A DNA stretch of 64,000 nt from Nocardia sp. BSTN01. Lineage in GTDB: Bacteria; Actinomycetota; Actinomycetes; Mycobacteriales; Mycobacteriaceae. The stretch spans positions 62,001 to 126,000 of the forward strand of contig NZ_JADKYP010000003.1 of assembly GCF_015354405.1 (NCBI RefSeq). The letters run 5' to 3'. Below are positions 1-19,024 of this stretch, piece by piece. Under the pieces are notes generated by a model. The model was not told the DNA's origin and made no database searches. It saw nothing but the letters and a program-made list of their open reading frames with translations. Numbering within the stretch: position 1 is the stretch's first letter; every line of letters begins with the position of its first letter. The position numbers and the translations under genes are program-made.

Positions 1-743
1 CGCTGCACGGTGACAACATCGCGTCGCGGTCGGAGAACACCCCGTTCTACGACGGTCCCTCCCTGATCGAGCACCTGGAGTCGGTGCCGGTCGATGCCGA
101 CAGCACCGGCCGTCATCAGGTGGGTCTGCGCTTCCCGGTCCAGTACGTGATCCGTCCGCGGACCGCGGAGTACCCGGACTATCGCGGATATGCGGGACAG
201 GTCGCCGCGGGCGTGGTCTCCAGGGGTGACGAGGTCGTGGTGCTGCCCTCCGGCATCCGGACCACGGTCGACCGCATCGACACCGCCGACGGCGAACTGC
301 CCTCCGCTCAGCCGGGTCGCAGTGTGACCCTGCTGCTCACCGACGAGGTCGACATCTCCCGCGGCGACACCATCGTCGCGGCCGCCGACGCGCCCGAACC
401 GATCGATTCGTTCGACGCCACCGTCTGCTGGCTCGGCGACAAGCCGCTGCGGCCCGGTGCCCGCCTGCTGCTCAAGCACGGCACGCGGACCACACAGGCC
501 ATCGTGGGCGCGCTGATCGAGCGGTTCGACGAGCAGAACCTGGCCGCCGACCCGAATCCGGAATCGCTGGCGCTCAACGATATCGGCCGCATCTCGGTAC
601 GCGTCGCGGAGCCGATCGCGGCCGACGACTACCGGGTCAACCGCTACACCGGCAGCTTCCTGCTCATCGACCCGGCGGGCGGTAACACCCTGGCCGCCGG
701 CCTGGTGGGCGACGTGCTGACCTCGGTCGAGGTCGGTAACTGA
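1..743 (+). CDS. cysN: Sulfate adenylyltransferase subunit 1 (CysN), 3' part
   Basis: The gene is cut by the left edge; the reading frame is open from base 3 and ends TGA at 741-743. The first codons read HGDNIASRSENTPFY and SLIEHLE, typical of CysN just after its GTPase domain, and the rest is the two translation-factor-like beta-barrel domains. CysN with CysD makes APS from ATP and sulfate, driven by GTP hydrolysis. The protein stops after the barrels (TSVEVGN), so there is no fused CysC (APS kinase) domain, unlike mycobacterial CysNC. The chelatase gene starts one base after the stop, so both are probably in one sulfate-assimilation operon whose beginning (cysD, cysH, sirA in relatives) lies outside the window. 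Confidence 0.93.
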   Translation, partial: LHGDNIASRSENTPFYDGPSLIEHLESVPVDADSTGRHQVGLRFPVQYVIRPRTAEYPDYRGYAGQVAAGVVSRGDEVVVLPSGIRTTVDRIDTADGELPSAQPGRSVTLLLTDEVDISRGDTIVAAADAPEPIDSFDATVCWLGDKPLRPGARLLLKHGTRTTQAIVGALIERFDEQNLAADPNPESLALNDIGRISVRVAEPIAADDYRVNRYTGSFLLIDPAGGNTLAAGLVGDVLTSVEVGN

Positions 744-14007: not shown

Positions 14008-15003
14008 TCAGGCCGCCGGCAGTTCCGGGATGCGGGTGGCGCGGGCGAAGACGGTCTCCCCCTCCGCCAGCCGCAACGCCTCCGCGTCACCGCGCGTGAC
14101 CTGCGCGGTGAACAGATCGCCGGTGGCCGCGTTGCGCAGTTCGAGGCGAACCTCGAAACCCAGGCGGACGACCCGCTCGACGGTCGCGCGGGTGACCCCC
14201 GCCGATTCCGCGGTGCCTTCGTGTTCGGCCAGCGCCATACCGGGATCACGGCCGATGCGAATATCGTGCGGGCGCACCAGATGGCCGTTCAGTTTCGCCA
14301 CCGCACCGAGGAACGACATGACGAATTCGTTGGCGGGACGGTCGTAGACGTCCGCGGGCGTTCCGACCTGTTCGATGCGACCGGCGTTCATCACCGCGAT
14401 CCGGTCGGCGACGTCGAGCGCCTCCTCCTGATCGTGGGTGACCAGCACGGTGGTCACGTGCACTTCCTCGTGCAGGCGGCGCAACCACGTGCGCAGATCA
14501 TGGCGCACCTTGGCGTCCAGAGCGCCGAACGGTTCGTCGAGCAGCAGCACCTGCGGGTCGACGGCCAGTGCCCGCGCCAGCGCCATCCGCTGCCGCTGAC
14601 CACCCGACAGCTGCGCCGGATAGCGATGCTGGAAACCGTCCAGGCCCACGATGCCGAGCAGTTCGTCGACGCGCTTGCGGATTTCGTTCTTCGGCCGCTT
14701 GCGGATCTTCAACCCGAACGCCACGTTGTCGCGCACGGTCATATGTTTGAACGCCGCGTAGTGCTGGAATACGAAGCCGATATCGCGCTTCTGCGGCGAG
14801 ACCCGGGTGACGTCGCGGTCGGCGATGGTCACGATGCCCGAATCCAGCGATTCCAGGCCGGCGATCGAGCGCAGCAGCGTCGACTTCCCGGAACCGGAGG
14901 GACCCAGCAGTGCGGTCAGTTCACCGGAGGGGATGTCCAGGCTGACGTTGTCGAGGGCGGCGAACGAACCGTAACGCTTGTTCGCGTCGGTGACGGTAAT
15001 CAT
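14008..15003 (-). CDS. cysA: Sulfate ABC transporter ATP-binding protein CysA
   Basis: 331 residues. Walker [10 protein letters not shown] (about 35-43), Q-loop VFQHYAAF, signature [15 protein letters not shown], Walker [13 protein letters not shown] and H-loop VTHDQEEAL are all intact, followed by a C-terminal regulatory TOBE-like domain. It powers sulfate/thiosulfate import through CysT and CysW. ATG 15003 overlaps the cysW stop (ATGA), so it is the last gene of the subI-cysT-cysW-cysA operon, as in mycobacteria. Confidence 0.95.
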
Positions 15004-15809
15004 TTGGCAGTGCCCCGCTTGCGTTCGAGGAGGGTCATCAGGATGAGCGTGACGAGCGCCATGGCCATGAGCAGGGTCGCCGCGCAGTAGGCGCCGAAGG
15101 TGTTGTGGTCGTTGATGTAGCGACCGTGCACCAGCAGCGTCAGGGTCTGGGAAATGCCGGGCAGTCCGGACGACACCATGATCACCGCGCCGAATTCGCC
15201 GAGAGCGCGAGCGACGGTGAGCACGATGCCGTAGGTCAGGCCCCACCGGATGGCCGGCAGGGTGATGCGCCAGAAGGTCTGCCAGCGGTTGGCGCCGAGC
15301 GTCGCCGCCGCTTGTTCCTGATCGTCGCCGATCTCGTGCAGGACCGGGACGACCTCGCTGACCACGAAGGGCAGCGTGACGAAGAGGGTGGCGATCACCA
15401 TGCCGGGCAGGCCGAAGATCACCCGGAAACCGAAACTGTCGAGGCCGCCGAACCAGCCGCCGACACCCCACAGCATGATCAGCGATACGCCGACCACCAC
15501 CGGCGACACCGCGAACGGCAGATCGACCACACCCTGAATCAGCGTGCGCCCCCGGAAGTTTCCGCGCACCAGCGCGATGGCGGTGATGACTCCGAAGACC
15601 ACGTTGAGCGGCACCACGATCGCGACGATCAACAGCGAGAGATTGAACGCCGAGATCGCGGCGGGTGTCGTGATGGAATCGAGGAAGGCGCCGATTCCGT
15701 GCTCGAAGCTGCGCCAGAGAATGATCACCAGCGGAGCCACCAGCAGCACGATCAGATACGCGAGCGCGATCACGCGCAGCGAAATCCGGGACGGGGCGGA
15801 CAGTTTCAT
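15000..15809 (-). CDS. cysW: Sulfate ABC transporter permease CysW
   Basis: 269 residues, about six membrane helices. The cytoplasmic coupling loop [22 protein letters not shown] matches the EAA motif of binding-protein-dependent permeases and docks on CysA. It starts inside the end of cysT (ATGA overlap at 15806-15809) and overlaps cysA by 4 bp, so the three genes are translationally coupled. Confidence 0.94.
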
Positions 15810-16720
15810 CGGCTGGCCTGTTCCTTGCGGGCGGTGCGTTCGGAGAAGATGCGCAGGATCAGCAGGGTGGCGAAGGAAATCGCCAGCAGCGCCACCGAAA
15901 CCGCCGCCGCGTTCACCGGACGGTCCACCTCGATCTGCTGCTGGATGTACTGCGACGCCACCTGGGTGCGGCGCGGAATATTGCCGCCGATCAGCACCAC
16001 CGACCCGTATTCACCGATGGCGCGCGCGAAGGCGAGGCCACCGCCGGAGATGATGGCCGGCGCGAGCGACGGCAATACCACACGCCGGAAGATGGTCAGG
16101 TTGTTCGCGCCCAGCGAGGCCGCGGCCTGCTCCACTTCCTTGTCCGCCTCGATCAGCACCGGCTGCACCGAGCGCACGACGAACGGCAAGGTCACGAACG
16201 CCAGCGCCACCACCAGTCCCGGCTGGGTGGCGTTCAGGTGGATACCGACCGGGCTCTGCGGCCCGTAGAGCGACAGCAACACGATGCTCGCCACGATCGT
16301 CGGCAGCGCGAACGGCAGATCGATCAGGGCGTTGACGAAGCTCTTGCCCGGGAAATCGTCGCGCACCAGCACCCACGCCACCACCGTGCCCATGACGACG
16401 TTGATCACGGCGACGACCACCGACACGAGGACCGTCACCCGCAGCGCGTCCAGCGCCGCGGGCGCGGTGACCGCGTCCCAGAAGCCGGACCATCCGTCGT
16501 CGAAGGAGTGGATCGTCAGTGCGGCCAGCGGCAACAAGACGATGATGCTCAGCCACAGCACCGTGATCGCGAGCCCGAGCGAGCCGGCCGAGCCGGTGAG
16601 CCGCGACCGCCAGGCCGGGCCGGCGGACTGCTTCTGCTGCTGCTGCCCGGAAACGCCGGGACCAGGGGTCCCGGCGTCGGTACTACTGCCGATATCGGCC
16701 TTCGTACTGCTGTCAGTCAC
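15806..16720 (-). CDS. cysT: Sulfate ABC transporter permease CysT
   Basis: 304 residues. A polar N-terminus of about 45 residues rich in Ser, Thr and Gln (GQQQQKQ) precedes six membrane helices and the EAA loop [22 protein letters not shown]. It forms the membrane channel with CysW. GTG start at 16720, 36 bp after subI. An internal start is possible because the N-terminal extension is low-complexity, but no better-placed start was seen. Confidence 0.93.
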
Positions 16721-16756: not shown

Positions 16757-17815
16757 TTACTTGGTGGCTTTGTCGTAGAGCACCGCGACGCTGCCGGTGT
16801 TGGGGGTGAACAGATCCTTGTCGACCTGCTTCCACCCGCCCAGATCGGCGATCGTCCACAGCTTCTGCGGCGCCGGGAAATCCTTGCTGTACTGCGCGGC
16901 GACCTGCGGATCGACGGGACGGAAACCGGCCTCCGCCCAGGCCTTCTGACCGGCCTGCGAGTACAGGAAGTCCTTGAACGCGACGGCCGTGGTCGGGTTC
17001 TTGGCGTTCTTCGTCACGGCCACCGGATTCTCGATCTTGAAGGTGGTCGGCGGGATGACGTGTTCGATCGGATCCCCGCTGCGCTCGGAGAAGATCGCCT
17101 CGTTCTCGTAGCTGAGCAGCACGTCACCGGTGCCCTGCAGGAAGGTCTCGGTCGCCTCCCGGCCGGACTTCGGCTGCACCTTGATGTGGTCCTTGGAGAT
17201 CAGCTTGCCCAGGTAGTCCAGGCCCGCCTGCGGATTCTTGCCGCCGGCGCTCTCCGCGGCATAGGGCGCCAGCAGATTCCACTTGGCCGAGCCGGAGCTG
17301 AACGGGTTCGGGGTCACCACCTCGACGCCGGGCTTGAGCAGGTCGTTCCAGTCGTGGATGCCCTTGGGGTTGCCCTTGCGGACCGCGATCACGACAACCG
17401 AACCGAACGGCACGCCCTTGTTGGCGTCGGCATTCCAGTTCGAGTCGACCAGTCCGGCATCCACCAGCCGGGTGATGTCGGGCTCGACCGAGAAGCTGAC
17501 GACGTCGGCCTGTGCTCCGTCCTTCACCTTGCGGGACTGGTCACCGGAGGCGCCGTAGGACTGCTGGATCTGCGCGCCCTTGCCGGCCTCGGTCTTGTTG
17601 AATTCTGCGATCACCTTGTCGTAGCCCGGCTTGGCGACCGAGTAGGCGAACAGCGTCAACTGCCCGCCACCGCTGCTGGCGTTGCCGCCCGCGGTGTCGC
17701 TCGAACCACCACTGCAGGCGGCGGTCAGTCCCACGGCCGCCAGCGCGGTGAGCGCGACGGCGATGCGCCCTCGGCGCACCGAGAACCAGGATCTGCTGGA
17801 CGATCTGCGAGACAT
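16757..17815 (-). CDS. subI: Sulfate-binding lipoprotein SubI
   Basis: 352 residues. An Arg-rich N-terminus and hydrophobic helix end in the lipobox LTAAC (about residues 30-34), then a Sbp-type periplasmic-binding fold (TLFAYSVAKPGYDKVI, PNPFSSGSAKW). It is anchored outside the membrane and delivers sulfate to CysTW. ATG 17815 was chosen for AGGAAAGG 8 nt upstream; an in-frame GTG at 17851 would put that Shine-Dalgarno inside the gene. First full gene of the operon; a leaderless short ORF lies 190 bp upstream. Confidence 0.94.
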   Translation of the reverse strand: MSRRSSSRSWFSVRRGRIAVALTALAAVGLTAACSGGSSDTAGGNASSGGGQLTLFAYSVAKPGYDKVIAEFNKTEAGKGAQIQQSYGASGDQSRKVKDGAQADVVSFSVEPDITRLVDAGLVDSNWNADANKGVPFGSVVVIAVRKGNPKGIHDWNDLLKPGVEVVTPNPFSSGSAKWNLLAPYAAESAGGKNPQAGLDYLGKLISKDHIKVQPKSGREATETFLQGTGDVLLSYENEAIFSERSGDPIEHVIPPTTFKIENPVAVTKNAKNPTTAVAFKDFLYSQAGQKAWAEAGFRPVDPQVAAQYSKDFPAPQKLWTIADLGGWKQVDKDLFTPNTGSVAVLYDKATK

Positions 17816-18004
17816 GGAAGCGACCTTTCCTGCCGCCCGCCACCGGCGCACACTGCTGCCGGGGCGGATGTAACTGTGATTGAGCGGTAGACCTGCCCCG
17901 GTGGATACCGGACAGTGGCGCGTGCGGCAGAGCCGCGGGAAGCGGAGACGCTGCGGAAGAGATGTGCGCCGGTCCGTTGGAGAAGGCGCAGCGTGTCCGA
18001 TCAG

Positions 18005-18097
18005 CTATCGACGACAGTGAATGTCCGCGACGACGAGACAGCCGACCGCGATCAACGCCAATTCATGGCGGACCTGCGGAACAACGCTCGATGACAC
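18005..18097 (-). CDS. Leaderless 30-residue leader peptide upstream of the sulfate transporter operon
   Basis: GTG 18097 to TAG 18005-18007. The peptide starts MSSSVVPQVRHELALIAVG and ends with C, LVVADIH, C, RR, giving two Cys codons (residues 20 and 28) near the stop. A perfect TANNNT box (TAGAGT, 18104-18109) ends exactly 6 nt before the GTG, so the start codon would be the first transcribed base. Leaderless Cys-codon short ORFs upstream of sulfur genes are known cysteine-responsive attenuators in mycobacteria. Between this ORF and subI, CCGGGGC and GCCCCGG (about 17860-17905) can pair. Role here is inference: ribosome progress at Cys codons controls readthrough into subI. Confidence 0.6.
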   Translation of the reverse strand: MSSSVVPQVRHELALIAVGCLVVADIHCRR

Positions 18098-18103
18098 GGG
18101 CAG

Positions 18104-18109
18104 ACTCTA
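18104..18109 (-). promoter_or_regulatory. -10 box of the subI-cysTWA operon
   Basis: TAGAGT on the minus strand, 6 nt before the leader GTG. No good -35 was found 16-18 nt upstream. It would start the transcript at the first base of the leader ORF. Confidence 0.55.
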
Positions 18110-18333
18110 ACAGAGCGCCCGGAACCGCGCGAATCGGTCGAAGAGGAAATCGGCCCGGCCCGGCGAGTCGGCGAAACCCGCCGATGACCAGCGGGAAGTA
18201 TTCATGTTTCGGATTCCTGGCGGTCACCCGACGGCCCCGCAAACGAGATCCGGGGTCCGCGCCGACGGTGGTGAAGACCACAGTCACGCGAACCCCGGGG
18301 TGGGCACGTCCGGCACGAGCCGATCGGGCCGGC

Positions 18334-18600
18334 CTATTCCTCGTCGGCGGACTCGGGCGGGCTCTCGTAGAGGTCGAGCACCCACTCCTCGACGGCGACA
18401 TCCTCACCGTCCTCGTCGGGCTCGTCGGCGCGGAGCCGGTTCTGCAGCCGCACGCCCAGACCGAGCAGTTGCGCGGCGCGCACCATCTCGATCGCCTCGT
18501 CGGCGGTGGTGTAGTGGGTCGCGATCAGTCGGGGGCCGTCCTCGATCTCCAGGAGCTGCTCGAGGTCGACGAATTCCTCATCGGTTGGCATGGGCTGCAC
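18334..18600 (-). CDS. Small acidic conserved-type protein, unknown function
   Basis: 88 residues from GTG 18600 (85 from ATG 18591). Soluble and acidic, with the alternating helix/strand look of a small folded domain (FVDLEQLLEIEDGPRLIATHYTTADEAIEMVRAAQLLGLGVRLQ) and a Glu/Asp-rich tail. GGAGG lies 11 nt before the GTG and 20 nt before the ATG, favouring GTG. Codon usage matches neighbouring genes. It lies downstream of the two small membrane proteins on the same strand. Function not recognised. Confidence 0.65.
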   Translation of the reverse strand: MQPMPTDEEFVDLEQLLEIEDGPRLIATHYTTADEAIEMVRAAQLLGLGVRLQNRLRADEPDEDGEDVAVEEWVLDLYESPPESADEE

Positions 18601-18628: not shown

Positions 18629-18706
18629 TTATCGCGTCAGCAACCAGGCGACGACGATCAGCACGAGCAGCGCGATCAACGCCAACTGGACCCGTGAGCG
18701 TGGCAT
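18629..18706 (-). CDS. 25-residue single-helix membrane microprotein
   Basis: ATG at 18706-18704 overlaps the stop of the preceding gene (TGATG), the coupling used throughout this genome. The peptide is MPRSRVQLALIALLVL followed by IVVAWLLTR: a basic N-terminus and one hydrophobic helix covering most of the chain, with Arg at the end. Position, overlap and composition support a translated microprotein that may bind the larger membrane protein encoded just upstream. Too short for family assignment. Confidence 0.5.
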   Translation of the reverse strand: MPRSRVQLALIALLVLIVVAWLLTR

Positions 18707-19017
18707 CAGATCGCTTCCTTCGACATCGGACCCGGAGTGTGCATGGAGGCGCCGGCCAGCGCCGGCTCGGGTGGTGCGAGGGTCGCCCCATCGGGCTCGA
18801 TCTCGGATGCGGCGTCGGCGGCCGCGAGATCGGTCTCGGCGGCCGACCGGTCCCGGCCGAGCAGTCGCAGCACGATCCGCAGTCCACGATCGAGCAGGCA
18901 GGCGATCAGGAAACTGACCGGCACCGCCCCGACCAGAACCACGGCGAACTGCGGGATGAACGGCAATCCGGCCACCCACAACTCGAAGCCGTCCCACCAG
19001 CCCGCGACATGATGCAC
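18706..19017 (-). CDS. Small membrane protein, unknown function
   Basis: 103 residues with one strong membrane segment (PQFAVVLVGAVPVSFLIACLL), then a basic stretch (DRGLRIVLRLLGRDR) and an acidic, Pro/Ala-rich cytoplasmic-type tail. GTG 19017 is preferred because TAGGCT ends 7 nt before it; an in-frame GTG two codons earlier (19023) would lie only 1 nt from that box. It is divergent from the trehalase gene. The 25-residue microprotein follows with a 1-nt overlap. Confidence 0.65.
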   Translation of the reverse strand: MHHVAGWWDGFELWVAGLPFIPQFAVVLVGAVPVSFLIACLLDRGLRIVLRLLGRDRSAAETDLAAADAASEIEPDGATLAPPEPALAGASMHTPGPMSKEAI

Positions 19018-19024
19018 GTCCACC

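Follow-up and report, generated by a model that had tools for sequence, protein, structure and literature searches.

A short open reading frame (sORF) lies upstream of the sulfate transporter operon subI-cysTWA on the minus strand of the window, the 64,000-nucleotide stretch of Nocardia sp. BSTN01 DNA that was analysed (Table 1). Its translation is VSSSVVPQVRHELALIAVGCLVVADIHCRR, with Cys at codons 20 and 28 and a C-terminal CRR. The frame opens with a GTG at 18097-18095, separated from the TAGAGT box by the spacer CTGCCC, and closes with a TAG at 18007-18005, which leaves 189 nt to the ATG of subI (17815). The preliminary description of this DNA had reported a TAGAGT 6 nt before the GTG of a 30-codon frame with Cys at codons 20 and 28 and a CRR end, about 190 bp upstream of the sulfate transporter operon, and these particulars were confirmed; the strand, which it did not give, is the minus strand throughout. 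Beyond the sORF, two small proteins of 88 and 105 aa are encoded on the same strand (18334-18600 and 18706-19023), and Pfam gave no match to either at 0.01. The 105-aa protein has a relative upstream in 10/10 SubI loci tested, including the seven without the leader.

Table 1. Features of the leader and the sulfate transporter operon, in window coordinates.
Feature	Position	Strand	Basis
-10 box TAGAGT (TANNNT), 6 nt before GTG	18104..18109	-	sequence; TAnnnT at 6 or 7 nt in 118/118 distinct upstreams
sORF of 30 aa, apparently leaderless; Cys leader peptide of the Ms4533A family	18005..18097	-	NF042937 match
Small hairpin within sORF, CGCCA/TGGCG	18056..18070	-	outer pair standard in 103/108 distinct ORFs
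Cys20 codon TGT, not conserved as Cys	18038..18040	-	Cys in 36/108 distinct ORFs
Cys28 codon TGT, conserved; probable regulatory codon	18014..18016	-	TGT in 108/108 distinct ORFs
UTR hairpin H1, arms 17998-17987 and 17955-17944	17944..17998	-	own-species pairing beats all 2000 permutations, n = 72
UTR hairpin H3, arms 17918-17910 and 17899-17892	17892..17918	-	own-species pairing beats all 2000 permutations, n = 53
UTR hairpin H4, immediately before the subI Shine-Dalgarno	17837..17867	-	beats all 2000 permutations, n = 72; window fold
subI Shine-Dalgarno GGAAAGG	17824..17830	-	sequence
subI, sulfate-binding protein	16757..17815	-	TIGR00971, 183.4 bits, cut-off 155.5
cysT, sulfate permease	15806..16720	-	TIGR02139, 272.9 bits, cut-off 246.1
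cysW, sulfate permease	15000..15809	-	TIGR02140, 332.3 bits, cut-off 329.1
cysA, ABC ATPase with TOBE domain	14008..15003	-	Pfam PF00005 and PF12857; named by position

Start, family and distribution of the leader

The core pattern LA[LM][IVL]A[VI] matched 163 of the 176 loci compared. The 13 unmatched loci were eight SubI loci (including L067) and five family hits. Of these hits, L135, L136 and L140 are Cys leaders whose core is altered, L171 matches closely and L176 is apparently spurious. The start was fixed 12 codons before the peptide core, where the codon is GTG in 152 rows and ATG in 11 (163/163). A TAnnnT box stands 6 nt before this fixed start in 116 of the 163 rows and 7 nt before it in 47, and among the 118 distinct upstream sequences the counts are 79 and 39, against a background further upstream of 0.20 per offset on average and 5 at most. 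A -10 box 6 or 7 nt ahead in 118/118 distinct upstreams is compatible with a transcript that would begin at the start codon. When the box was used to choose the start, a few TTG starts at 9 nt appeared; these were rejected, as each directly followed a GTG that stands at 6 nt. The preliminary description had proposed a leaderless Cys leader ORF ahead of subI-cysTWA, for which a conserved GTG or ATG was to be sought in relatives; this is apparently what the locus contains, the start, the frame, the -10 box and the terminal CR all being kept.

The sORF matched the NCBIfam family NF042937 (leader_Ms4533A, 'Ms4533A family Cys-rich leader peptide'), scoring 52 bits where the cut-off is 31 (E = 5.9e-14), and a profile search of the genome matched this one place only. 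By this profile match, the sORF represents the Ms4533A cysteine leader family in Nocardia. The family name, to judge from its form, seems to be derived from MSMEG_4533, which passages of two papers term a sulfate-binding protein (PMC10433963, PMC5445863). A position directly ahead of a sulfate-binding protein gene, the feature that the family name implies, is also what was found here, with subI as the next gene downstream. Because of the NF042937 match and the identity of MSMEG_4533, neither the sORF nor its target is new; the sORF is real and conserved, and belongs to an already named leader family. The suggestion that a sulfate transporter target might mark a distinct variant therefore does not hold. 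A SubI-like lipoprotein start was found downstream of the leader in 160/163 rows with a simple pattern, and translation of the next gene at six non-Nocardia loci gave a SubI-like lipoprotein, as judged by eye. The accessions NF042938 and NF042935, also considered as candidates, proved to be unrelated families, and Rfam at gathering scores gave no match over the window.

When loci were fetched by the SubI protein alone, the leader was present in 72/80 (the best 80 of 237; by title 78 Nocardia, one Rhodococcus and one Skermania). These SubI proteins include those of N. kruczakiae, N. aobensis and N. cerradoensis, which are 99% identical to the one in the window. Of the remaining eight loci, L067 lacks sequence upstream of subI; in the other seven (L104-L106 and L109-L112, from N. 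carnea, N. fusca, N. testacea, N. sienata, N. grenadensis, N. speluncae and N. rhamnosiphila) the leader was not found. At L104, subI lies close behind small genes. The NF042937 profile found the leader in 64/71 genomes of the same genus (own genome included) and in 66/119 genomes in all. In a sample of 397 genomes from the order it gave matches in 48, of which 43 exceeded the cut-off.

Cysteine codon choice and peptide conservation

Positions within the peptide are given as idx, the codon count from the first L of LALIAVG, so that Cys28 is idx 15. Distinct ORFs were counted since some genomes had been fetched twice, and the codon comparisons were made without a tree on sequences that are related, so that Fisher p-values for them are not true probabilities. 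The two cysteines differ in their conservation. The codon of the terminal Cys, UGU, is almost perfectly preserved among relatives, and the other cysteine is not: position 20 is Cys in only 36 of the 108 distinct ORFs, with Asn in 33, Asp in 16 and other residues in the remainder. The earlier notion that both Cys codons matter is therefore not supported. In 53/108 distinct ORFs there is a single Cys codon only.

The terminal Cys runs of the 108 ORFs contain 126 TGT codons and one TGC, whereas the other Cys codons of the same ORFs are 4 TGT to 40 TGC, and in the next gene downstream the first Cys is TGT in 5 cases and TGC in 101. The coding background of the window, taken from 26 ORFs chosen mechanically by GC3, is 24 TGT among 113 Cys codons. 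Outside the 108, the Mycobacterium-like locus L136 has a Cys run of TGT TGT TGC. UGU is read by the tRNA of UGC through wobble, perhaps more slowly.

The genome encodes further Cys leaders. A leader of the Ms4527A family, RRHVDFKRVCSASC, lies at G000:C130:57825-57887, on the same contig and about 4.1 kb before position 1 of the window, so that the Ms4527A and Ms4533A leaders are about 22 kb apart. An NF042934 leader is found at G000:C124:18417-18467, and a weak NF042934 match, below the cut-off, at G000:C10:7568-7624. In 28 distinct Ms4527A ORFs from 34 loci scanned (L184-L217), the Cys at position 13 is TGT in all 27 that have it, whereas the earlier ones are mixed (position 9, TGT 9 and TGC 19; position 12, TGT 8 and TGC 14). 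The NF042934 sample comprised 24 distinct leaders from 30 loci, with a position limit that left out the final Cys of some. Those without a run of at least three Cys have TGT at the last Cys (15/15), as do 3 further leaders, but the nine polycysteine leaders mix TGC and TGT, and the UGU preference fails there. UGU at the key Cys is therefore a strong tendency across families, not a law.

Conservation of the peptide is centred on LALIAVG..VAD, and several residues are kept through more than one codon (four each for Ala at idx 4 and Ala at idx 11, two for Asp at idx 12). In the 108-ORF set, conservation at idx 0-5 arises partly by construction, as rows were chosen by LA[LM][IVL]A[VI]. The pN/pS figures were taken from SubI-selected loci only (61 distinct ORFs of 72 loci). 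They gave 0.25 for the whole sORF, with 0.32 at idx -11..-5, 0.07 at idx -4..6 and 0.27 at idx 7..13. The low pN/pS across the sORF indicates that the peptide, and not the Cys codon alone, is under purifying selection. Selection on the RNA may act as well at the CGCCA/TGGCG hairpin, since its outer pair is kept in CG (97), GC (5) and AT (1) versions, which probably reflect few independent changes.

Among the matches listed in a literature search, no paper dealt with the Ms4533A leader of Nocardia, and none with a preference for UGU in the Cys leaders of actinobacteria. The UGU choice and the selection on the peptide are possibly novel.

The untranslated region between the leader and subI

Pairing in the untranslated region (UTR) was assessed for 15 pairs of regions with a permutation test, in which own-species pairing was set against 2000 permutations. 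The test used 72 of 80 deduplicated Nocardia sequences (from 139 rows) in which the anchors were recognisable, and smaller sets of 53 for H3 and 58 for pairing between the H3 3' side and the H4 5' side. The resulting counts are not true probabilities, as the sequences are related and no tree was used. The hairpins H1, H3 and H4 pair better within than between species in Nocardia. RNAalifold on the 80 aligned Nocardia sequences returned essentially the small hairpin within the sORF only.

The preliminary description had pointed to complementary CCGGGGC and GCCCCGG sequences between the sORF and the operon. Both are present (17901-17895 and 17865-17859, minus strand) and would link H3, by its 3' side, with the 5' side of H4, but their pairing as a switch received no support, because permuted pairings of these regions were as good or better in 1996/2000 cases (n = 58). 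Pairing of the Cys region also gave no own-species excess with the Shine-Dalgarno (1953/2000 permutations as good or better) or with H4 (916/2000). Four other pairs gave lower counts, which among 15 tests are no more than suggestive: the final 45 nt of the sORF with the 5' region of H1 (1/2000), the Cys region with the same region (25/2000), the 5' region of H1 with the 3' region of H4 (47/2000), and the sORF end with the Shine-Dalgarno (93/2000).

Ribosome footprints were placed on the 80 sequences in a thermodynamic folding model. A footprint at the Cys codon left the computed exposure of the subI Shine-Dalgarno unchanged (mean -0.001, p = 0.46), and comparison with a footprint at the stop codon gave a difference of +0.032 (p = 0.13). 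The feature of a classical transcription attenuator, an intrinsic terminator before the operon, was not found: a consensus scan returned none in 17750-18250. The H1 loop of many Nocardia leaders (e.g., L007 and L019) carries a conserved stretch, TAGAC(T)TGGCGCGC, which contains a TANNNT and could be a second, internal promoter. The stretch is not kept in the window near 17975.

Proposed regulation by the leader and comparison with known cysteine leaders

A prediction of 2005 placed leader peptides containing Cys runs upstream of cys operons in mycobacteria (passages of PMC1262725), a report of 2015 described conserved uORFs that are rich in Cys and occupied by ribosomes (PMC4633059, in part), and cysteine-responsive attenuation in M. 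smegmatis was described by Canestrari et al. 2020, as cited in passages of PMC9031893 and PMC13236596. To judge from its name, Ms4533A is likely to be among the M. smegmatis loci of that study. The Nocardia sORF resembles those polycysteine leaders, as presented in the citing passages, in being an apparently leaderless Cys short ORF that heads a sulfur operon. The Cys codons of the M. smegmatis leaders are described as contiguous (PMC9031893, in the passages concerned), whereas in the Nocardia sORF Cys20 and Cys28 are separated and only Cys28 is conserved.

With the Ms4533A family the sORF shares the curated score, a sulfate-binding protein gene as target, the TANNNT directly before the start and the terminal Cys-Arg. 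The Nocardia leaders have one terminal Cys (xCR, xCRR), while most of those in the g31 genomes, taken for Mycobacterium, have two (CCR); the UTR measures 150-227 nt (median 195) in 80 Nocardia sequences and 114-130 nt in the g31 loci measured. The Ms4527A leader (NF042936), which lies ahead of nirA in mycobacteria according to a passage of PMC4633059, is likewise a Cys leader ORF of the same genome with TGT at its key Cys, but differs in its peptide and in its target. A more distant parallel is uORFC-8-2, upstream of cysS in Rhodobacterales, a uORF with Cys codons that passages of PMC8632094 propose as a ribosome-mediated attenuator. UGC is dominant there and a U-tract terminator follows, whereas the Nocardia sORF has UGU and no terminator was found.

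The best explanation, and in our judgement a very probable one by analogy, is an Ms4533A leader in which stalling at UGU under Cys-tRNA shortage would raise expression of subI-cysTWA. The sORF would be translated from an apparently leaderless mRNA that runs on into the operon. When Cys-tRNA is scarce, the ribosome would pause once the C-terminal UGU occupies its A site, and the pause would lead to higher expression of the sulfate transporter genes, either by exposing the subI ribosome binding site or by preventing Rho-dependent termination. Translation of the sORF, cysteine as the signal and an increase in expression upon stalling are inferred from the related M. smegmatis leaders. Against the model count the unchanged computed exposure of the Shine-Dalgarno, the Cys region's lack of an own-species excess in pairing with the Shine-Dalgarno or H4, the absence of an intrinsic terminator from the scanned interval, the 53 ORFs with one Cys codon, the seven SubI loci in which the leader was not found, and the TGC that closes the Cys run of L136. 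Attenuation, the function proposed in the preliminary description, is upheld as the most likely one, largely by analogy with the M. smegmatis leaders.

Rho-dependent control is a fair rival, and transcription attenuation as a whole appears somewhat less probable than not. The stalled or translating ribosome would here shield the UTR from Rho or alter H1, H3 and H4, and RNA polymerase would continue into subI. The own-species pairing of the three hairpins is consistent with such a scheme, as is the lack of support for the model of Shine-Dalgarno exposure, and passages of PMC1262725 suggest Rho-dependent termination, as a weak prediction, for mycobacterial cys leaders. Against it count the lack of an intrinsic terminator in the scanned interval and the mechanism in M. 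smegmatis, which is called translational at second hand in a passage of PMC13236596.

The leader could also act in part as an arrest peptide, with the nascent chain HxLALIAVGxxxVAD[IV]xC contributing to ribosome arrest at the terminal UGU. One Cys codon would then suffice, and sensing would be specific to codon and peptide. We consider this possible but rather doubtful. Purifying selection well upstream of the Cys (idx -4..6), residues such as Ala at idx 4 and 11 and Asp at idx 12 kept through several codons, and the many ORFs with one Cys only are in its favour, and such a contribution would account for the conserved core as well as for the lone Cys. However, part of the conservation may stem from the hairpin within the sORF, and the core is altered in L135, L136 and L140.

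A free small peptide acting in trans, with its place before subI reflecting mere co-expression, would also agree with the amino-acid conservation. It is nevertheless improbable, given the nearly constant SubI-like lipoprotein start downstream, the invariant synonymous choice at the Cys codon, which points to decoding rather than to the product, and the similar codon choice in Ms4527A leaders. Only its shortness speaks for a chance ORF, and the curated family match and the conserved frame and -10 box make that reading negligible.

In the preferred reading, stalling at the terminal UGU of an Ms4533A leader, the cysteine control described in mycobacteria would be extended to Nocardia and its relatives, where a single UGU codon and the peptide have been retained in evolution and the number of cysteines has not. 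A broader proposal, which we hold tentatively and regard as the less likely outcome, is that actinobacterial cysteine leaders of the Ms4533A type sense through a single wobble-read UGU instead of a tract, with the conserved nascent chain as an aid. Should the preference for UGU be functional, a change of UGU to UGC should weaken control while leaving the peptide unchanged, which bears on how cysteine may be sensed through a single Cys codon.
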